NCBI GenBank assembly: GCA_947479455.1
Contig: CANJZE010000003.1
Coordinates: 84,956 to 148,955 of the forward strand
DNA from: Bacteroidota bacterium
GTDB taxonomy: Bacteria > Bacteroidota > Bacteroidia > Chitinophagales > LD1
Reading direction: 5' to 3'
DNA length: 64,000 nt
Part shown: positions 48,244 to 62,206 of the stretch, one piece after another
Layout of the letters: the number at the start of each line of letters is the position of its first letter
Position numbering within the stretch: position 1 is the stretch's first letter
Translations under genes and position numbers: made by a program
The notes under the pieces: model-generated
Databases searched by the model: none
Told to the model about the DNA's origin: nothing
Seen by the model: only the letters and a program-made list of their open reading frames with translations

Positions 48244-48301
48244 GATGGATAATTGGATGAATGGATTCAAAAAATCCAACTATCCAATTATCCATTTATC
48301 C
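48244..48301. repeat. Word-repeat hairpin downstream of the 1394-aa T9SS gene
   Basis: The left arm ATGGATAATTGGATGAATGG and right arm CCAACTATCCAATTATCCAT pair over 25 positions with about 21 matches and a loop of a few A/C residues. Each arm is built of tandem octamers of the TGGATAAT type. It starts 3 bp beyond the stop at 48304 on the minus strand, so the message ends in this hairpin. Confidence 0.65.
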
Positions 48302-48303
48302 TT

Positions 48304-51300
48304 TTACAGTTTAATCAACTTCAGTGTGACCGCATGTTTTGCGCTGGACACACGCATCATGTAAACACCGCTCGCTACTTTCAGTTCAATTTCCAATTTT
48401 GCGTTTGTAATTTCTGAGAGATAGACCAGTCGTCCGTTATCGTCAAAAATTTCGACTTTACCACCAATGGCATTGTTGCCGGTTTCTAAAGTCCAATAGC
48501 CATTTTCAAGCGGGTTTGGATAAACTTTTAAAGACTCGCCTTCAAACACCGAGGCTATTCCTACCGTATTTATAATAATAGGATTCGATGTTACTCGACA
48601 CCCATTAGTATCTGTAATAGCTAAAGTGTAAGTCCCGTTTTGGGTTGCAATGTAAATATGATTTGTTGCTCCGTTGATGAGGCCACCATTCAAAAACCAT
48701 TGATAAGTAACTGCATTGTAAGCGGTAAGTGTATCGCCATTTACACTAATAGAAACCGGTGGTAAAGGATAAACCTGAACCGGCACGTGGTTAGATGATG
48801 CAGTGCAATTGCCTGCATCGGTAACAGTTACGTAATAGTTTCCGGCATTGCGCGCATAAATACATTGTGTAGTGGCACCGTTATTCCACAAGTATGAATT
48901 GTAAGTATTATCGGCACAAACTTGAATACTATCGCCTGCACACATGATTGGATTAGCGGCAGTAATATGCACAGTTCCTGTTCCGCTAGGGCTAATAATC
49001 ATGCTTGCGGTGGAACTACACCCCCCGTTATCATTCACTGTTACAGTATAAGTGCCGGCTGCCAAATTTGAAAGTGAAGCACTGCTTCCGCCACCACTCC
49101 AGTTGTAAGTATAAGTTCCACTGCCACCTGTTGCAGCTACACTTGCCGAGCCGTTATTGTTTCCACAACTGGTATTTACCGAAGCAGGCGTAAGTGTTAT
49201 TCCTCCTGATGAAATGATACTCACGGTTGCTGTAGCAGTGCAGTTTCCTGCACCTGTTACAGTAACGTTATAAGTTCCTGCGGCAAGGTTGCTGGCAGTT
49301 TGTGTGGTAGCTCCATTGCTCCAAATGTACGAGTAAGGACCTGTGCCTGCAGTTACCGTTGCGGTAACTGAACCTGTTGAAGTGCAACCCGAATTTGTTC
49401 CCGATGTAGTTAATGAAACTCCTGAGGTTGAACTTACATTGATACTAGCTGTAGCGGTACAATTTCCACTACCGGTTACTGTAACGGTATAAATTCCAGA
49501 AGCAAGATTCAACAAAGATGAAGTGGTTCCTCCATTATTCCATAGGTAAGTAAATGGTCCCGTTCCGCTGGTTGTAGCAACGCTTGCCGTACCATTACTA
49601 TTACCACAAGCAGCAGGAGTAGCCGAAGAAGAAAGACTTACACCACTTCCCGATGCACCTACAATCGCAGAAGCCGTTGCTGTGCAATTTCCTGCGCCTG
49701 TTACTGTTACAGTATAATTACCTGCTGAAAGGTTAGAAGCAGTTTGTGTATTTGCTCCGCCTGTCCAAGTATACGTAAATGGACCACTACCCGCGGTAAC
49801 ATTTGCCATTGCTGAACCCGTGGCAGTGCACCCTGCGTTTGTAGTGGATGTGCTCACACTAATTCCAGCGGATGAACCCACCGAAGCAGATGCAGTTGCA
49901 GAACAACCACTCGCATTTACTGTAACTGTATAATTTCCCGCAGCTAGATTAGATGCAGTTGCAGTAGTTGCGCCATTACTCCAAAGATAGCTTATAGGAG
50001 TAGCACCGCTCGGATTTACCGTAGCGCTTCCATTATTGCCGGCACAAGTTGTTCCTGTAGTGGTGGCGCTTGCGGTCATAGAACATGCTGTGCAATTTGG
50101 TAAAACAGTTGTGCTTGTTATTATTAACTCATTGTTATTTACGTCAACGATACGTATAGGATACTCAGGTATGGCTTCGGTATTACCACTGGCAAATTGA
50201 TTCCAGGTATAAGAAGCAGGTGAGCAACCCGGAGGGAAATTGCAAATACCTAAAAGACAAGCACTACAATCTTGTGTAGTATCTTGCTCGTACCAGTTAT
50301 AAGGTCCTTGTCCTCCAGAAGCCGTTATGTTTCCGTTCTGTTCAATGCACGCGGTAAGTGATGCACAAATGTTTACTGTAATTGCAACAGAATCGCTACC
50401 GCAACCAATAGTGTTTACAATATAATGTGTTCCTTGCCCTGCTGTGGTAGGATTAAAAACTCCTGTGCTTGCATTTGTAATACCAGTTCCACTCCAAGTA
50501 CCACCCGGAGTTGATGCAGTTAAAGTTACCGAGCCATCGGTAGTGCAGTAAGGTCCCATTTGGCAAACACTTGCATCGCAACAAGTAATAGCAACAATGC
50601 CACAGGCCCCCGCTGCAATTTGTTGCATAGCACCCGTTCTTGCACCCGAACCGGATGTACCCGTTGAGCCCGCCACAATAATATTTCCACCGGTGCTAAT
50701 TTCTACGTCATACACATTGTAAATGGTGGAACCGTTTGTGGTGGCAGGGTAAGTTGCTAACTGCGTTAAGTTCTGGTCAAACTTAACCACTTGTCCCTTT
50801 GAACCCACATAAATATTCCCGCAATCATCAATATCAATTCCACTGTTTTCGTTAAAACTACTACCAAATTGAGTAGTAAAAGCACCGCCAGGAATTGCTA
50901 CACTAGCAATAATTGCACCTGTCGTAAAATTCCGCTTGTCTAAACGATTGCCCCTATTTACATAAACAAAACCTCCATAAGTCTTTATTGCCTCGATGCC
51001 GGTATTGTTGTAGCGAAAATTTTCGCACTTGTAACCCAAATGATAGGTGTTATCGAAATATTGTTTTGCCTGCGCGGGCGTGCCACAAAGACTAAAATTT
51101 TGATTCAAATAACCTATTGAATCGTGAGTCATAAAATAATATTTCCCATTTCCACAGGCGGTAATTGAGCGAACTTCCTCAGTAGGAAACAAAGCTCCAT
51201 CTGTAACGCGAATACTATTGGTTACATTTCCGTTGCTCATGTCTACTTGATAAACATAAGGCTGTGGAGGAAGTGTATTTCCTGTGCCACCTATAACCAA

Positions 51301-55034: not shown

Positions 55035-56162
55035 ATGAACAAGGCGGTGAAGGAAATTCGCATGGTAGATTTGAAGTTGCAGTATCTGCGTTTGAAAAAC
55101 GAAATAGATGCGGCCATGGCCGAAGTCGTGAACTCTACTCAGTTTATAAAAGGTCCGCAGGTAAAGAGTTTCGAAAATAATTTGGCTGCTTATCTTTCAT
55201 GCAATCACGTAATTGGTTGCGCTAACGGAACTGATTCATTACAAATTGCCATGATGGCCTTAGGGTTGAAAGAAGGCGATGAAGTGATTACGGCAAGTTT
55301 TACCTACGTGGCTACAGCCGAAGTTATTGCTCTACTCAAATTGAAGCCTGTTTTGGTCGAAGTAAATCCCGATACATTTACCATTGACCCTTCTGCTATT
55401 GAGGCGGCAATAACTCCAAAAACTAAAGCAATAGTTCCCGTGCATCTCTTCGGACAATGTGCCGACATGGAAGCGATAATGAAAATTGCCGCTAAGCACA
55501 ATTTGTATGTGATAGAAGATAACGCCCAGGCAATTGGTGCTGATTACATTTTTACAGATGGCGAAAAGAAAAAATCAGGAACCATAGGAACCGTTGGTTC
55601 AACTTCGTTTTTCCCTTCAAAAAATTTAGGTTGCTATGGCGATGGTGGCGCATTGAACACCGATGATGAAGCATTGGCTGGGAAGATGCGCATGGTTGCT
55701 AACCACGGACAGCGCGTGCAATATGTGCATGATGAAATTGGAGTGAACTCACGCTTAGATACGTTACAAGCGGCAGTATTGGATGTAAAGTTGAAATACC
55801 TAAATGACTTTGCTGCGCGAAGAATTGCAGTAGCTGATTTTTATGATTCTGCGTTTCTAGATTTGAAAAATATCCAAACCCCTGTTCGCGCAAAAAACTC
55901 AACGCATGTTTTTCATCAGTACACCTTGCTGTTGAAAGATGGAAAGAGAGATGAGGTGAGAAAAAAATTAGAAGCCAAAGGAATTCCGAGTATGATTTAT
56001 TACCCGATTCCACTACACAAACAAAAGGCATACAAAACAGAAGGAAATTTTCCAGTTACCGAAGAGCTTTGTAAAAATGTTTTATCACTTCCAATTCATA
56101 CGGAGTTCGAAAAAGAGGAATTAAATTTTATTGCTGAAAATTTCATTTTGGCTATTCAATAA
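55035..56162 (+). CDS. wbpE: WbpE-type aminotransferase (DegT/DnrJ/EryC1/StrS family), 375 aa
   Basis: This PLP enzyme transfers an amino group from glutamate to C3 of UDP-2-acetamido-3-keto-glucuronic acid. The fold-type I signatures are GCANGTDSLQIAMMALGLKE, EGDEVITASFTYVATAEV, AIVPVHLFGQCADMEAI, VIEDNAQAIGA and the PLP-Lys motif SFFPSKNLGCYGDGGALNTD. The order and wording match Pseudomonas WbpE closely, and wbpD lies downstream. The paired WbpB dehydrogenase is not in the window. The stop codon lies in a (TCAATAA)n array that runs to the ugd start. Confidence 0.88.
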   Translation: MNKAVKEIRMVDLKLQYLRLKNEIDAAMAEVVNSTQFIKGPQVKSFENNLAAYLSCNHVIGCANGTDSLQIAMMALGLKEGDEVITASFTYVATAEVIALLKLKPVLVEVNPDTFTIDPSAIEAAITPKTKAIVPVHLFGQCADMEAIMKIAAKHNLYVIEDNAQAIGADYIFTDGEKKKSGTIGTVGSTSFFPSKNLGCYGDGGALNTDDEALAGKMRMVANHGQRVQYVHDEIGVNSRLDTLQAAVLDVKLKYLNDFAARRIAVADFYDSAFLDLKNIQTPVRAKNSTHVFHQYTLLLKDGKRDEVRKKLEAKGIPSMIYYPIPLHKQKAYKTEGNFPVTEELCKNVLSLPIHTEFEKEELNFIAENFILAIQ

Positions 56163-56180
56163 TCAATAATCAATAATCAA
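56156..56180 (+). repeat. Heptamer array at the wbpE-ugd junction
   Basis: Three tandem copies of TCAATAA plus a partial fourth fill the whole spacer. The wbpE stop TAA (56160-56162) is inside copy one, and the ugd ATG starts at the end of the array. No Shine-Dalgarno sequence is present. Confidence 0.8.
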
Positions 56181-57493
56181 TGAAGATTGCAGTTGTAGGA
56201 ACCGGATATGTTGGCTTAGTAACAGGAACTTGTTTTGCTGAAACAGGAAACGAAGTAGTGTGCATTGATATAAATGCTGAAAAAGTGAAATCGCTTTTAG
56301 CAGGGGTAATTCCAATCTACGAACCCGACTTGGATATTTTGTTTGAAAGAAATACGAAGGCTGGTAGATTAAAATTTACAACCAACCTTGCCGAAGGAAT
56401 TGAAGGGGCAAAAATTATTTTCCTTGCCTTACCTACTCCACCGGGTGAAGATGGAAGTGCAGATTTGAAATATGTTCTAGGAGTAGCGGATGACCTTGGG
56501 AAAATTATTAAGGATTATGTGGTTGTGGTAAATAAAAGTACCGTACCAGTAGGCACTGCAGATAAAGTGCGCGATAAAATTACTCCCAATGCGAAGGCTG
56601 CTTTCGATGTAGTTTCTAATCCTGAATTTTTGCGCGAAGGTGTGGCAGTAGAAGATTTTATGAAACCTGAACGTGTTGTGGTTGGAACAAAATCTGAACG
56701 CGCAAAGAAATTGATGGAAGAGTTGTATGAGCCGTTTGTGCGTCAGGGAAATCCTGTTTTGTTTATGGATGAACGCAGTGCAGAGGTAAGCAAGTATGCG
56801 GCAAATGCTTTCTTGGCTACCAAGATTTCGTTTATGAATGAGATTGCAAACTTGTGCGAATTGGTAGGTGCCGATGTAGATAATGTGCGCAAAGGGATAG
56901 GAACTGATTCACGTATTGGTAAAAGATTTTTATTCCCAGGGGTTGGTTATGGTGGAAGTTGTTTCCCTAAAGATGTTCAGGCACTGTATCACACCGCTAA
57001 ACAATACGATTACAACTTTCAGATTCTTGATGCGGTAATGAATGTGAATCAATTACAGCGAGAGAATTTCTTTCAAACTATTTCGAATCATTTTAAAGGA
57101 GATTTAAAAGGAAAAACAATTGCTGTTTGGGGTTTGGCTTTTAAACCAAACACCGATGATATTCGCGAAGCACCGGCTCTTTATTTGATAGAAAAATTTT
57201 TAGAAGCCGGAGCAAAGGTTCGCACTTACGACCCCGAAGCAATCAATAACGTAAAGCAAATTTTTGGCGAGAAGGTTTATTTTGCAAAAGACAAAGACGA
57301 TACTTTAACCGGAGCAGATTTTTTAGTGATTGTAACCGAGTGGAATGAATTTCGTTCTCCCGATTTCGACAAAATTACTTCTGCCATTAAACAGAAATTA
57401 ATTTTTGACGGAAGAAATTTGTATTCGTTGCCGCACATGAAAGAGTTGGGTTATACTTATTATTCGATAGGAAGAGAAATTGTAAAACCATGA
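56180..57493 (+). CDS. ugd: UDP-glucose 6-dehydrogenase, 437 aa
   Basis: Ugd oxidises UDP-glucose to UDP-glucuronate with two NAD+. The Rossmann motif is [16 protein letters not shown] at the N-terminus. Mid-protein residues include [18 protein letters not shown] and [20 protein letters not shown]. The active-site Cys lies in [18 protein letters not shown]. The C-domain carries [20 protein letters not shown]. Length is normal. Its stop overlaps the uxs start by 4 bp (ATGA), so product and next enzyme are coupled: UDP-GlcA feeds UDP-xylose. Confidence 0.96.
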
Positions 57494-58458
57494 AAAGAGT
57501 TTTAATAACAGGTGCGGCAGGTTTTCTCGGCTCACATCTTTGCGACCGCTTCATAAAGGAAGGTTACAATGTAGTGGGTATGGATAATCTCATTACAGGC
57601 GATTTGAAAAATATCGAGCATCTTTTCAAACTTGAAAATTTCGAATTTTACAATCACGATGTTTCGAAGTTTGTGCATGTGCCTGGCGATTTAGATTACA
57701 TCCTTCACTTTGCTTCACCCGCTTCGCCAATTGATTATTTAAAGATTCCTATACAAACGTTGAAGGTTGGTTCGCTTGGAACGCATAATCTTTTGGGTTT
57801 AGCGAAAGCAAAAAAAGCGTGCATGCTTATTGCAAGCACCAGCGAAGTTTATGGCGACCCTAATGTTCATCCGCAACCCGAAACTTATTGGGGCAACGTA
57901 AACCCTGTTGGTCCACGCGGAGTGTATGATGAAGCGAAACGTTTTCAGGAAGCAATCACCATGGCTTACCACACTTTTCATGGATTGGATACAAAGATTG
58001 TCCGCATCTTTAACACCTATGGTCCACGTATGCGACTGAATGATGGTCGTGTTCTTCCCGCATTTATTGGTCAGGCGTTGCGCGGAGAAGATTTGACAAT
58101 TTTTGGAGATGGTTCACAAACACGCTCGTTTTGTTATGTAGATGATTTAGTAGAAGGAATTTATCGTTTGCTCTTGAGCGATTATCATCAACCCGTAAAC
58201 ATTGGTAACCCGAGTGAAATAACTATTTCGCAGTTTGCCGAAGAGATAATCAAACTAACAGGCACCAATCAAAAAGTAATTTACAAAGACTTGCCGGTAG
58301 ACGACCCTAAGCAACGTCAGCCTGATATTACACGCGCGCGAGAAATTCTTAATTGGGAACTAAAAGTATCTCGTGAAGAAGGGTTGAAAATTACTTACGA
58401 TTATTTCAGAAGTTTGAGCCAGGAGGAATTGTATAAGAGTAAACATCGGTTTGAGTGA
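57490..58458 (+). CDS. uxs: UDP-glucuronate decarboxylase (UDP-xylose synthase), 322 aa
   Basis: This short-chain dehydrogenase/reductase decarboxylates UDP-GlcA to UDP-xylose through a 4-keto intermediate with bound NAD+. The NAD motif is [18 protein letters not shown]. The UXS-specific region reads [20 protein letters not shown], then [20 protein letters not shown], holding the YxxxK catalytic pair. The late [20 protein letters not shown] and [16 protein letters not shown] also fit. It overlaps ugd by 4 bp. A word-repeat array begins 3 bp after its stop. Confidence 0.94.
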
Positions 58459-58461
58459 GAG

Positions 58462-58510
58462 CAATGGAATAATGGAATGATGGAATAATGGAATACAGAA
58501 ACGCAAATAC
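58462..58510 (+). repeat. Left inverted arm (octamer words) of the four-helix-bundle element
   Basis: The arm has four tandem octamers ATGGAATA, ATGGAATG, ATGGAATA and ATGGAATA, the last followed by CAGAAAC and GCAAATAC. It ends 10 bp before the four-helix-bundle ATG. Confidence 0.85.
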
Positions 58511-58520
58511 ATTGTAGTGC

Positions 58521-58931
58521 ATGTCAGAAAGAAGAAACATAAATAGAGGATATAAGAAATTAGAAGTTTGGAATGATGCTATTGAATTGTACGTGTTGGT
58601 TTGTAAACATTTTTCGAAGTTGTCTTTTGTTCATCAAAAATCTGCAGCTAATGCAATTGATGCTGCACAAAGTATTTCGCGAAACATAGCGGAGGGATAT
58701 TGCAGAAGAAGTTTGAAGGATTATTTGAATTTTTTGAATTACGCTTTAGGTTCTTGCGGAGAATTACATTCGGTTTGTTGCGCCTCACAAAAATCACAAG
58801 TTATTTTAGATACAGTTTTTGAAGAAATTGATTTGGTGCATTATAAAACAGAAAACAAATTGCTAAAACTGATTGAATCATTACAGAAAAAATTAAAAGA
58901 CGGAAATTGGGACGATAGTTTCGCAAAGTGA
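58521..58931 (+). CDS. Four-helix-bundle protein (S23/23S rRNA intervening-sequence protein family), 136 aa
   Basis: This small basic all-helical protein has the family pattern: YKKLEVWNDAIELYVLVCKH (the K.LEVW.kAieL block), AANAIDAAQSISRNIAEGYC and LKDYLNFLNYALGSCGELHS. These proteins were first found inside 23S rRNA intervening sequences and form pentameric bundles; the related Avd protein serves diversity-generating retroelements. No biochemical function is established. It does not fit the sugar pathway around it. Its stop TGA (58929-58931) touches the right inverted arm. No reverse transcriptase is in the window. Confidence 0.9.
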   Translation: MSERRNINRGYKKLEVWNDAIELYVLVCKHFSKLSFVHQKSAANAIDAAQSISRNIAEGYCRRSLKDYLNFLNYALGSCGELHSVCCASQKSQVILDTVFEEIDLVHYKTENKLLKLIESLQKKLKDGNWDDSFAK

Positions 58932-58970
58932 TTTGCATTCCACCATTCTATCATTCCACTATTCCAATTG
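58930..58970 (-). repeat. Right inverted arm of the four-helix-bundle element
   Basis: The arm reads GATTTGCATTCCACCATTCT and continues to TTCCACTATTCCAATTG. Its outer end TTCCACTATTCCAATT then (C)GACAA recurs at 59641-59662 in the gene-less hairpin. Confidence 0.8.
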
Positions 58971-58980
58971 ACAAACAGAA

Positions 58981-59568
58981 ATGGATAACACAACAAACTC
59001 TTTTTACGCGCATGATACTGCCATAGTTGACGAAGGCTGCAAGATTGGTAAGGGAACCAAAATTTGGCACTTCAGTCATATTATGAGCAATTGTGTGATT
59101 GGAGAAAATTGCAACTTCGGTCAGAACGTAGTAGTGAGTCCTGAAGTTGTTTTAGGTAACAATGTTAAGGTGCAGAATAATGTTTCAATTTATACCGGAG
59201 TTACTTGCGAAGACGATGTATTCTTAGGTCCAAGTTGTGTTTTTACTAACGTAACCAATCCAAGAAGCGGAGTCAACCGAAGAGGACAATATTCAAAAAC
59301 AACAGTGAAACATGGAGCAAGTATAGGCGCCAATGCCACTATTGTTTGCGGACATGATATTGGTGAGTTTGCATTTATTGGAGCTGGTGCTGTGGTAACA
59401 AAAAATATTCCTGCCTATGCATTGGTGGTTGGAAATCCTTCAAAACAAATTGGATGGATGAGCGAGTTTGGTCATCGTTTGAATTTTGATAAAGATGGAA
59501 TTGCAATTTGCGAAGAGAGTAAAGAGAAGTATGAATTAAAAAACAACATTGTGAGAAAAATGGAATGA
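58981..59568 (+). CDS. wbpD: WbpD-type UDP-sugar N-acetyltransferase, 195 aa
   Basis: This left-handed beta-helix acetyltransferase acetylates the C3 amino group of UDP-2-acetamido-3-amino glucuronate using acetyl-CoA. Hexapeptide repeats run through most of the protein ([40 protein letters not shown]). The WbpD-specific segments [38 protein letters not shown] and [20 protein letters not shown] are present. Its last residues Met-Glu and the TGA stop come from the word-repeat array ATGGAATGATGG, so the native C-terminus may have been altered. Confidence 0.92.
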
Positions 59569-59660
59569 TGGAAGAATGAAATGATGGAATGCAAAGACAA
59601 ACACAGGATTTTGTATTTCCAAAATTACAGTATTCCAACTTTCCACTATTCCAATTCGAC
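59560..59660. repeat. Word-repeat hairpin without a gene (wbpD-tviB spacer)
   Basis: The left arm (59560-59592: ATGGAATGATGGAAGAATGA and on, ending GGAATGCA) pairs imperfectly with the right arm (59615-59660, ending TTCCACTATTCCAATTCGAC). The right end matches the right end of the four-helix-bundle element over 16 bp plus GACAA. The loop of roughly 20-40 nt contains no gene. The left arm includes the wbpD stop codon. Confidence 0.7.
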
Positions 59661-59684
59661 AATTAAAGAGATAAAACAAAAGAC

Positions 59685-60977
59685 ATGGTAGAACAATTAC
59701 TAAAAAAAGAAAAGAAACTCGCAGTCATTGGTCTTGGCTATGTGGGGTTACCTATTGCTTTGGAGTTTGCAAAGAAAATTTCGGTCATCGGTTTTGACAT
59801 TAATCAAAAGCGAGTTGACCTAATGAAAAACAAAATTGACCCAAGCAATGAATTGGATTCATCGGCTTTTGAGGGAACCGACATTTTGTTTACTGCAAAT
59901 ATTGAGGAATTGAAGGCTGCAAATTTTTTCATTGTTGCAGTTCCTACTCCTGTAGATAAACACAATGTTCCTGATTTAAAACCGGTGTTGGCCGCTTCAA
60001 CAACTATTGGCAAAGCATTGAAAAAAGGCGACTATGTTGTTTTTGAATCTACTGTTTATCCGGGATGTACTGAAGAAGATTGCTTACCGGTTATGGAAAA
60101 AATTTCAGGTTTGAGTTTGAAGAACGGAGATTTTAAATTGGGCTATTCACCAGAGCGTATTAACCCGGGCGATAAAGAACATACGATTACAAAAATTATG
60201 AAAGTAGTTAGCGGTAGCGATGCACAAGCATTAGATGCAATTGCCCGCACGTATGAAATTATTGTAACCGCAGGAACACATCGTGCTTCATCTATTAAGG
60301 TAGCAGAAGCTGCAAAAATTATTGAGAATACTCAGCGCGACTTGAACATTGCTTTGATGAATGAACTCTCACGTATTTTTGATTTAATGGGCATCAATAC
60401 ATACGAAGTTTTGGAAGCTGCCGGAACAAAATGGAATTTCTTAAAGTTCTTTCCGGGTTTAGTTGGCGGACATTGCATTGGAGTTGACCCTTACTATCTC
60501 ACGTATAAATCAAATTCTCTCGGTTATAATCCTGAAGTAATTTTAGCGGGTAGAAGAATCAACGATGATATGGGTGCACACGTTGCACGCAAACTTGTTC
60601 AGCAACTAATCAAAGCGCACAAACAGATTGATGCTACTCGTGTATTGGTAATGGGCGCTACGTTCAAAGAAAACGTAAGCGATATACGAAACAGTAAAGT
60701 AGTGGATGTTATTCAGGAACTAAAGCATTACTCAGTAAATACCGAAGTAGTTGACCCTTTAGCTGATGCAGAAGAGTTTCATGAAGAGTACGGAATTCAT
60801 TTACAAAAAGAATACGGCAAAGATTATGATGCTGTAATTGTAGCTGTGAACCACGAACAGTTTACAGATTTGAATGATGATTTTTTTAAGAAATTTTTGA
60901 AGCCCGATGGAATTGTGGTGGATGTAAAAGGCGATTTAAGAAACAAAATTAAGGAGTTTAAATATTGGAGTTTGTAA
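59685..60977 (+). CDS. tviB: UDP-N-acetylhexosamine 6-dehydrogenase (TviB/WbpO type), 430 aa
   Basis: This nucleotide-sugar dehydrogenase oxidises UDP-GlcNAc (or UDP-GalNAc) to the uronic acid. The NAD motif is LAVIGLGYVGLPIALEFAKK. Family signatures are FIVAVPTPVDKHNVPDLKPV, FESTVYPGCTEEDCLPVMEK and GYSPERINPGDKEHTI. The active-site Cys lies in GLVGGHCIGVDPYYLTYKS. The C-domain has VLVMGATFKENVSDIRNSKV. The pattern is TviB/WbpO rather than the Ugd type at 56180. Its product can serve both the WbpE-WbpD branch and the epimerase at 62215. It is flanked by hairpins on both sides. Confidence 0.88.
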   Translation: MVEQLLKKEKKLAVIGLGYVGLPIALEFAKKISVIGFDINQKRVDLMKNKIDPSNELDSSAFEGTDILFTANIEELKAANFFIVAVPTPVDKHNVPDLKPVLAASTTIGKALKKGDYVVFESTVYPGCTEEDCLPVMEKISGLSLKNGDFKLGYSPERINPGDKEHTITKIMKVVSGSDAQALDAIARTYEIIVTAGTHRASSIKVAEAAKIIENTQRDLNIALMNELSRIFDLMGINTYEVLEAAGTKWNFLKFFPGLVGGHCIGVDPYYLTYKSNSLGYNPEVILAGRRINDDMGAHVARKLVQQLIKAHKQIDATRVLVMGATFKENVSDIRNSKVVDVIQELKHYSVNTEVVDPLADAEEFHEEYGIHLQKEYGKDYDAVIVAVNHEQFTDLNDDFFKKFLKPDGIVVDVKGDLRNKIKEFKYWSL

Positions 60978-61051: not shown

Positions 61052-62125
61052 ATGAAGAAAATACTTATCACCGGAGGAGCAGGATTCATAGGCTCGCATG
61101 TAGTTAGGTTGTTTGTCAATAAATATCCCGACTCTCAAATTTTTAATCTCGATAAGTTGACCTATGCCGGCAATCTCGAAAACCTCAAAGACATTGAGAA
61201 CAAACCCAATTACAAATTTGTAAAGGGCGATATTACTGATGCAGCTTTCATCAACGACTTATTTCAGCAAGAAAAATTTGATTCAGTAATTCACCTCGCT
61301 GCCGAAAGCCATGTGGACAGAAGTATTTCAAATCCATTGGAGTTTGTTCAAACAAACGTAATTGGAACAGTCAACCTTCTAAATGCCGCTAAAGAAATTT
61401 GGAAAGGCAACATCGGACATCCGGCTTCGGACATCCGACCACATCTCTTCTATCACGTTTCTACCGATGAAGTTTACGGAAGTTTAGGTGACGAAGGATT
61501 GTTTACTGAAGAAACTTCTTACGACCCGCATAGTCCTTACTCTGCAAGTAAAGCTGCAAGCGACCATTTTGTGCGCGCTTATTTCGACACTTACAATTTG
61601 CCTATCGTAATTTCTAATTGCTCAAATAATTACGGACCCAATCATTTTCCCGAAAAACTGATTCCGCTTTGTATTCACAACATTAAAAACAGCAAGCCAT
61701 TGCCTATTTATGGCAAAGGTGAAAACGTGCGCGACTGGTTATTTGTAGAAGACCATGCTAATGCCATTGATGTTATTTTTCACAACGCAAAACTAGGAAG
61801 CACTTATAACATTGGTGGTCATAATGAATGGACGAATATTGATGTGATTCGTTTGCTCTGCAAAATCATGGATAAGAAATTAGGAAGGGCTGAAGGAGAA
61901 AATGAAAAGCTAATTACGTTTGTAAAAGATAGAGCCGGTCACGATTTGCGCTATGCTATTGATTCTACCAAACTTCAAAATGAATTAGGCTGGAAACCAT
62001 CGTTGCAGTTTGAAGAAGGTTTAGAAAAAACGGTTGACTGGTATTTAGCTAATGAAGTATGGCTGAGCCATGTTACATCCGGTAACTATCAAAAGTATTA
62101 CGAAAGCCAGTATGTAAGCAGGTAA
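61052..62125 (+). CDS. rfbB: dTDP-glucose 4,6-dehydratase, 357 aa
   Basis: RfbB converts dTDP-glucose to dTDP-4-keto-6-deoxyglucose, the entry to rhamnose and amino-deoxy sugars. Signatures are KKILITGGAGFIGSHVVRLF, NLDKLTYAGNLENLKDIE, HLAAESHVDRSISNPLEF, the catalytic region VSTDEVYGSLGDEGLFTEE, YSASKAASDHFVRAYFDTYN and NCSNNYGPNHFPEKLIPLCI. The ATG at 61052 is chosen; the frame upstream to 61007 is made of the hairpin array. The other rfb genes (rfbA, C, D) are not in the window. The stop TAA (62123-62125) lies inside an octamer array. Confidence 0.95.
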   Translation: MKKILITGGAGFIGSHVVRLFVNKYPDSQIFNLDKLTYAGNLENLKDIENKPNYKFVKGDITDAAFINDLFQQEKFDSVIHLAAESHVDRSISNPLEFVQTNVIGTVNLLNAAKEIWKGNIGHPASDIRPHLFYHVSTDEVYGSLGDEGLFTEETSYDPHSPYSASKAASDHFVRAYFDTYNLPIVISNCSNNYGPNHFPEKLIPLCIHNIKNSKPLPIYGKGENVRDWLFVEDHANAIDVIFHNAKLGSTYNIGGHNEWTNIDVIRLLCKIMDKKLGRAEGENEKLITFVKDRAGHDLRYAIDSTKLQNELGWKPSLQFEEGLEKTVDWYLANEVWLSHVTSGNYQKYYESQYVSR

Positions 62126-62206
62126 GCAGGAAAACAGGGAAACAGGCAATCAGTTGGAGCAAGTTTTCATTAACTGATTAACAGACTTCCTGATTTCCCG
62201 ATTAAC
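62114..62206. repeat. Octamer hairpin in the rfbB-tviC spacer
   Basis: The left arm (to about 62155) is a run of AAGCAGGT, AAGCAGGA, AAACAGGG, AAACAGGC and AATCAGTT. The right arm (62172-62206) is its imperfect complement, with about 25 of 35 positions matching. The loop is about 15 nt. The last codons and stop of rfbB are within the array (GTAAGCAGGTAAGCAGG). Confidence 0.7.

Follow-up and report, generated by a model that had tools for sequence, protein, structure and literature searches.

A gene for a four-helix-bundle protein of the S23 family lies, enclosed by long inverted arms, between two protein-coding genes in a 64,000-nt stretch of DNA from a member of the Bacteroidota (the window). 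The initial annotation interpreted the unit as a mobile or formerly mobile element, built like the intervening sequences (IVSs) of 23S rRNA, that sits in a protein-coding operon. Is this unit indeed a mobile element, possibly a selfish one, and how are its arms related to the protein that they enclose? The two host genes, named uxs and wbpD in the initial annotation, belong to a run of co-directional genes in a sugar operon, and the parts of the locus are as follows.

57490..58458, + strand: upstream host gene, NAD-dependent epimerase (uxs)
58459..58980, + strand: stretch from the uxs stop to the wbpD start, holding the element
58465..58497, + strand: left (5′) arm, TGGAATNA octamers, the G-rich strand being the coding strand
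58521..58931, + strand: S23 / four-helix-bundle protein gene, 136 aa (PF05635, TIGR02436)
58934..58966, − strand: right (3′) arm, octamer array, inverted copy of the left arm (28 of 33 pairs)
58981..59568, + strand: downstream host gene, hexapeptide transferase (wbpD)

The gene belongs to the S23 (23S_rRNA_IVP) family by curated profile cut-offs (PF05635, 61.5 bits against a cut-off of 33.8; TIGR02436, 62.4 bits against 24), and no Pfam family other than PF05635 matched it. It is the only open reading frame of at least 80 aa listed in the element, and neither a transposase nor a nuclease is present among those listed. A search of positions 57400-59800 against Rfam (E up to 1) gave no match, PADLOC gave none for two S23 proteins, and no clear target-site duplication was seen by eye at the uxs-wbpD junction. 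The two arms had been put at about 33 bp with about 28 matches, and we confirmed this: each is 33 nt long, they are 85% complementary with their octamers in register, and they are spaced 436 nt apart. Two finer points of the initial annotation held in a looser form. The common inner tail is present in that GCAAATAC begins 5 nt inside the left arm and its reverse complement, GCAAATC, overlaps the right arm at its inner end; the stop codon (58929-58931), said to touch the right arm, is indeed close to it and is separated from it by a gap of 2 nt. The inverted alignment score of the element's flanks is 41, compared to a 99th percentile of 25 and a maximum of 42 among mismatched flank pairs from 78 S23 genes (L027, with a short flank, was dropped). 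In the predicted fold of the transcript the arms are paired (z = −2.2; 2 of 100 shuffles equally good).

To find out whether the junction is also found without the element, we compared 18 genomes of the genus, including the source genome (G000). The wbpD gene is present in all 18 and uxs adjoins it in 15; the three loci without uxs beside wbpD are not part of the counts. An S23 gene is found at this junction in only two of the 15 genomes, G000 and G009. In the other 13, the matched ends are 2-66 nt apart, and in several of these genomes the uxs stop overlaps or abuts the wbpD start. The empty junctions include those of G015 and G004, the nearest relatives of G000 in the tree, and the search for empty sites that had been proposed as a check thus came out in favor of the element. 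Between G000 and G009 the S23 proteins share 78% identity, and the dN of 0.152, which is low relative to a saturated dS of 3.6, points to purifying selection. Over the last 60 alignment columns upstream of the element, G000 has an identity of 0.92 to G015 and of 0.70 to G009, and therefore no long tract on the upstream side was imported into G000 from the G009 lineage. Over the first 60 columns of wbpD, G000 differs from all five genomes compared (0.52-0.57). The presence of the same type of S23 gene in the distant G009 and its absence from nearer relatives need two gains, a transfer, or many losses; the tree and the flanks do not discriminate among these, which counts against reading the unit as a selfish element. 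We also considered that the insertion had lengthened the start of wbpD, and rejected it: the G000 and G009 proteins are two residues longer than those of four empty relatives, yet those of the empty G013 and G007 align over all 195 residues.

Occupied and empty sites among close relatives, as expected of a mobile element, occur not only at uxs-wbpD but also at two other sites. An S23 gene is present in 1 of 12 genomes at a site between genes that we take to be rsmD and coaD, and in 5 of 16 genomes at the site of another S23 element of the source genome, L008 (four loci and one locus, respectively, had no match to the upstream neighbor and were left out of these denominators). By eye, G008 has a same-word array without an S23 gene at rsmD-coaD, and same-word stretches without the gene are retained at the L008 site in G010, in G007 and, more weakly, in G004. 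Gene-less arrays also occur near the element in the window.

56153..56192, − strand: one-sided solo heptamer array, word matching that of L008, a resident S23 element
59561..59653, + strand: gene-less hairpin, octamer word shared with the window element (arms 59561-59591 and 59631-59653; z = −3.0)
62123..62204, + strand: gene-less array hairpin with the word of resident S23 element L002 (word match; z = −3.4)

Where the locus extends as far as the gene that follows wbpD, the hairpin at 59561-59653 is present in G000, G015 and G004 (108-119 nt) and absent from 14 others (5-47 nt). By eye, a GTATT(T)-like loop sequence recurs in this hairpin and in the gene-less hairpins L238, L239, L241 and L246, some with a smaller inner stem, GAAATAC/GTATTT; this is perhaps a conserved core. 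Elsewhere in the window, positions 48246-48306 hold an octamer array hairpin of TGGATAAT words, which no resident S23 element matched at the threshold used. At another place in the source genome, L248 (G000 C3 192925), an array of the window element's octamer word directly follows a stop codon; it is one-sided, with no inverted partner in the stretch viewed.

When three units of the octamer word were searched for with up to two mismatches in the 18 genomes, we found 16 matches in G000 (partly overlapping, in about ten places), 6 in G004 and 3 in G015; there was no match in the other 15 genomes, and the reversed pattern was found in none. The frequency of the word in G000 and its absence from 15 of the 18 genomes suggest a recent spread of the word. 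An S23 gene closely related to the window copy exists only in G000 and G009. Hence G015 and G004 have arrays of the word and no closely related S23 gene, while G009 has that S23 gene with decayed arms and no array of the word within two mismatches. The word and the protein are therefore not strictly coupled: their coupling is loose.

Flanking arms are common around S23 genes in general. Given sufficient flanks, arms scoring at least 28 enclose 148 of 202 S23 genes and only 7 of 297 control ORFs (non-S23, 90-400 aa) from the same DNA; the 54 S23 genes below the threshold count against the selfish-element reading. The arm build described in the initial annotation thus recurs around S23 genes elsewhere. 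Its restriction to octamers and to this operon was too narrow, because heptamer arms are commoner and the same word also occurs in hairpins that enclose no gene. Tandem arrays were detected in 223 of 410 S23 flanks of sufficient length and in 6 of 410 Markov-resampled controls, with a period of 7 nt in 172, of 8 nt in 41 and of another length in 10. Their median length is 5.0 units (10th to 90th percentile, 3.7-9.3, with a lower cut-off built in). The source genome has eight S23 genes, each of which is flanked, by eye, by word arrays of differing words; no more than 5 of these genes pass the 99% level of the mismatched-flank null, which also counts against the selfish-element reading.

The S23 family is present in 27 of 30 genomes (the source genome and 29 relatives) and in 116 of the 148 genomes sampled from the phylum. 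In the 80 named loci taken as the best 80 of 585 relatives, 69 of 95 S23 genes exceed the 99% level of a Markov null. The records of these best 80 of 585 are mostly from Bacteroidota; those that pass and bear other names, all from metagenome bins, include Clostridia (L203, L221, L237), Fibrobacter (L228), SAR324 (L215), Opitutae (L235), Nomurabacteria (L236) and Chlorobiota (L193). The result is weaker for the best 30 loci of the 148 phylum genomes, of which 7 exceed the 99% level and 19 the 95% level of a mismatched-pair null. This null is probably inflated because those loci share words, and we treat the comparison with control ORFs as the cleaner control. On plasmids, arms scoring at least 28 are found at 9 of 12 S23 loci (11 cyanobacterial and one from Riemerella, examined out of 36 plasmid records), and two of the three loci below the threshold have an upstream array by eye. 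No phage among 50,697 records matched the one S23 query used. The locus set behind these counts is non-random: it comprises 77 loci from the source genome and its relatives, the best 30 from the 148 phylum genomes and the best 80 of 585 relatives, and 40 of the relatives' loci were hand-picked down a ranked list. Each orthologous copy entered the counts on its own, one contig was probably counted twice (as L010 and L158), the broken S23 genes of L002 and L005 entered as one gene each, and flanks below the stated minimum were skipped count by count.

Some S23 loci have a particular arrangement. Six stretches of 3.4 to 5.4 kb (L164, L165, L175, L180, L204 and L216) carry two S23 genes each, with arms of different words, as if insertion sites cluster. 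Three cyanobacterial plasmids (L275, L278 and L280) have S23 elements in CRISPR operons, two of them between cas6 and cas4, while in the third the neighbors are cas10 and a cmr3-like gene. In PMC10910872, the 23S rRNA IVP is one of the domains named in a figure legend.

The array word tends to go with the lineage of the S23 protein. Comparison of 148 elements gave 10,878 pairs, 9,109 of them without a detected homologous neighbor gene. In these 9,109 pairs, the share with a common arm word was 0.4, 0.4, 1.2, 6.1, 13.2, 26.9 and 70% in seven bins of rising protein identity, the top bin consisting of 10 pairs from few elements. The rank correlation (Spearman 0.178; reached in 0 of 500 permutations) is modest; the pairs are not independent, and shared neighbors can be missed where flanks are short. 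An earlier Mantel-type test on 57 elements, which this one supersedes, gave a result in the same direction (Spearman 0.089; 3 of 1,000 permutations); L034, a weak hit, was excluded from then on. The nearest protein neighbors share an 8-nt period in 8 of 17 cases compared to 2.5 expected (54 of 2,000 permutations as high). Solo arrays show the association as well. In 464 kb of the source genome, 15 of 31 gene-less arrays carry the word of a resident S23 element, whereas sets of eight random non-resident elements gave a mean of 4.84, with 1 of 2,000 draws as high as 15. Similarly, 20 of 53 distal arrays in S23 loci match the word of their own locus, compared to 4.8% for other loci. The words often hold TAA, TAG or TGA, and at periods of 7 and 8 such stops would fall in every frame; the idea that the arrays serve as stop-codon arrays was rejected, as there were 355 inward stops compared to 348 (SD 12) in composition shuffles.

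Both neighbors lie on the strand of the S23 gene in 64 of 78 cases (L014 left out). Of the 148 elements, 134 have a G-rich and 7 a C-rich 5′ arm. For 29 gene-less hairpins between co-directional genes, the median distance is 8 nt from the preceding stop and 17 nt to the following start. Of the placeable arrays away from S23 genes, 16 are inside predicted ORFs and five between divergent or convergent genes, which counts against the selfish-element reading. One-sided solo arrays have the same direction as the transcript in 7 cases and the opposite one in 15. The initial annotation proposed that the arms pair in the transcript and that an RNase III-type enzyme could cut this stem, thereby splitting or tuning the operon message. 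If pairing in the mRNA were under selection, mismatches might be biased toward G-U pairing. We found no such excess in 57 elements (sense-wobble 83, antisense-wobble 91; P = 0.60), which is mild evidence against a stem at the mRNA level.

Considering the general build, the presence or absence of elements at otherwise clean junctions, the association of word with protein and the scattered gene-less arrays of resident words, all directly observed, we conclude with a probability of about 0.68 that the window element is an intercistronic S23 word element of a broad family: one S23 gene inside inverted arrays of 7-8 nt words, mobile or formerly mobile, with solo derivatives. The initial annotation's reading of a mobile or formerly mobile, IVS-like element in a protein-coding operon is thereby supported. 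Neither of the outcomes that it had named as refuting this reading occurred, since arms flank 148 of 202 S23 genes and the junction is empty in 13 of 15 genomes. In the genomes compared, no element was caught in the act of moving.

We propose that the S23 unit may spread as a selfish element into the gaps between co-transcribed genes; its listed ORFs give it no recombinase of its own. An S23 oligomer, ring-like by analogy with Avd, would bind the element's own word array with about one repeat per subunit, and the bound protein would mark the element's ends or its transcripts for copying by a host or trans-acting enzyme. Loss of the gene would leave solo arrays, like solo LTRs. The two solved relatives that we found, 2gsc and 2rld, have five chains each; five chains in a crystal entry do not prove a pentamer in solution, and array length also varies. 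The five chains, the median of five units and the shared 8-nt period are hints of array recognition by S23, and none of them is proof. According to PMC10053308, PF05635 resembles Avd, a protein of diversity-generating retroelements, and an alignment of 4DWL with 2GSC suggests homology. We tentatively conjecture, as a possibility short of even odds, that S23 proteins are ring-shaped, word-specific array readers with a word and a period particular to each lineage, that the unexplained heptamer repeats in Bacteroidota, Cyanobacteria and Beggiatoaceae represent S23 footprints and solo remnants, and that the whole is selfish DNA spreading between operon genes without its own recombinase.

The strongest rival explanations are a regulon and the loss of old insertions, which are compatible with each other and with the selfish-element reading. 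If the insertions are old, the occupied sites would be ancestral and recurrent hairpin-mediated deletion of the gene would leave the solo arrays, with little or no present mobility. Template switching at quasipalindromes would then keep the arms alike. Such a history agrees with the remnants noted by eye at two sites, rsmD-coaD and L008, where the word persists without the gene, and with S23 genes that occupy a common site in several species of the genus. Arms also match better within an element (mean 36.5, 24 comparisons) than across orthologues (29.7, 62 comparisons), a comparison on which we do not rely, as it is biased because the arms were chosen by their own match. We nevertheless consider this history somewhat unlikely, given that related S23 genes share a word at sites without a common neighbor and that the octamer word, with its 16 matches in G000, is missing from 15 of the 18 genomes compared within the genus. 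It is highly improbable that the arms are just ordinary, slippage-prone tandem repeats unlinked to S23: similar arrays do occur away from S23 genes, in 113 of 3,086 control windows (runs of N among them), but the gap between 148 of 202 S23 genes and 7 of 297 control ORFs, the mutual inversion of the arms and the words that follow S23 lineage all argue otherwise.

As a regulon, S23 proteins would be domesticated, word-specific RNA regulators, and the arrays near stops and starts would be binding sites, like those of TRAP (the trp RNA-binding attenuation protein), that tune the stability or coupling of operon messages. The low dN that separates the copies in G000 and G009, the solo arrays with resident words, the short distances of gene-less hairpins from stops and starts, and the fixed orientation of the 5′ arm relative to the gene (134 compared to 7) would all suit this role. 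For the hairpins of cyanobacterial short tandemly repeated repetitive sequences (STRRs), an effect on the stability of transcripts or on translational coupling has been suggested (PMC2670836). The patchy presence of S23 genes at clean junctions speaks against it, as do the several elements of different words within one genome, the lack of excess in G-U-compatible changes on the mRNA strand and the one-sided solo arrays that are not oriented with the transcript, and we regard the regulon as unlikely.

S23 proteins are common and, to our knowledge, no function has been shown for them. Joining them with heptamer repeats makes both testable, since most S23 genes examined adjoin a candidate binding site and natural cognate and non-cognate pairs can serve as controls. 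S23 genes in operons, for example in cas operons, may be passengers that do not belong to the surrounding system. Overall, the S23 word element looks like a widespread and little-noticed kind of mobile DNA.

The element can be compared to several known systems. REP/RAYT and IS200/IS605-type systems have short palindromic intergenic solo copies and one gene whose lineage tracks the palindrome sequence, and S23 elements similarly have solo copies and a word-linked gene lineage. They differ in that the window element lacks a tyrosine transposase, its protein is a four-helix bundle and its palindrome consists of tandem words. Its gene is a PF05635 member and not a RAYT, and an S23 gene as the only listed ORF, with no clear duplication by eye, does not fit an insertion sequence or a MITE. 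We know of no catalytic site in the S23 four-helix bundle. TRAP is a ring protein that reads regularly spaced short repeats, which is the mechanism that we propose for S23; it is unrelated to S23, and the likeness is an analogy only.

The IVS of 23S rRNA is an element whose ends pair into a long stem, with an S23-family ORF in the loop between them, and which is excised by RNase III without religation. The predicted fold gives the window element the same build of stem and loop. The window element, however, lies between two protein genes and not inside a 23S rRNA gene, its arms are tandem arrays of 7-8 nt words, and gene-less copies of the words exist. In PMC4990558, the Coxiella burnetii IVS is described as selfish and horizontally acquired.

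Short tandem heptamers are comparable to the arrays themselves. For TAACTGA arrays, in Beggiatoaceae, Cyanobacteria and Bacteroidetes, the possibility of a mobile element has been weighed (PMC4679880), and both these arrays and the STRRs are 7-nt tandem units that are mostly intergenic, often near starts or stops, and patchy (PMC4679880, PMC2670836). The cyanobacterial STRRs are hairpin-capable (PMC2670836), and both sources catalogue the repeats without a cause. The words "four helix" and "S23" do not occur in the main text of PMC4679880, and we found no report in the open-licence literature that joins S23 genes to heptamer arrays. The arms of cyanobacterial S23 genes were likened to published STRR families by look only. 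In the wider S23 set the period is likewise 7 nt in 172 of 223 arrays, while the window element itself is octameric; what sets the S23 loci apart from the heptamer repeats is that here the arrays flank S23 genes as matched inverted arms.
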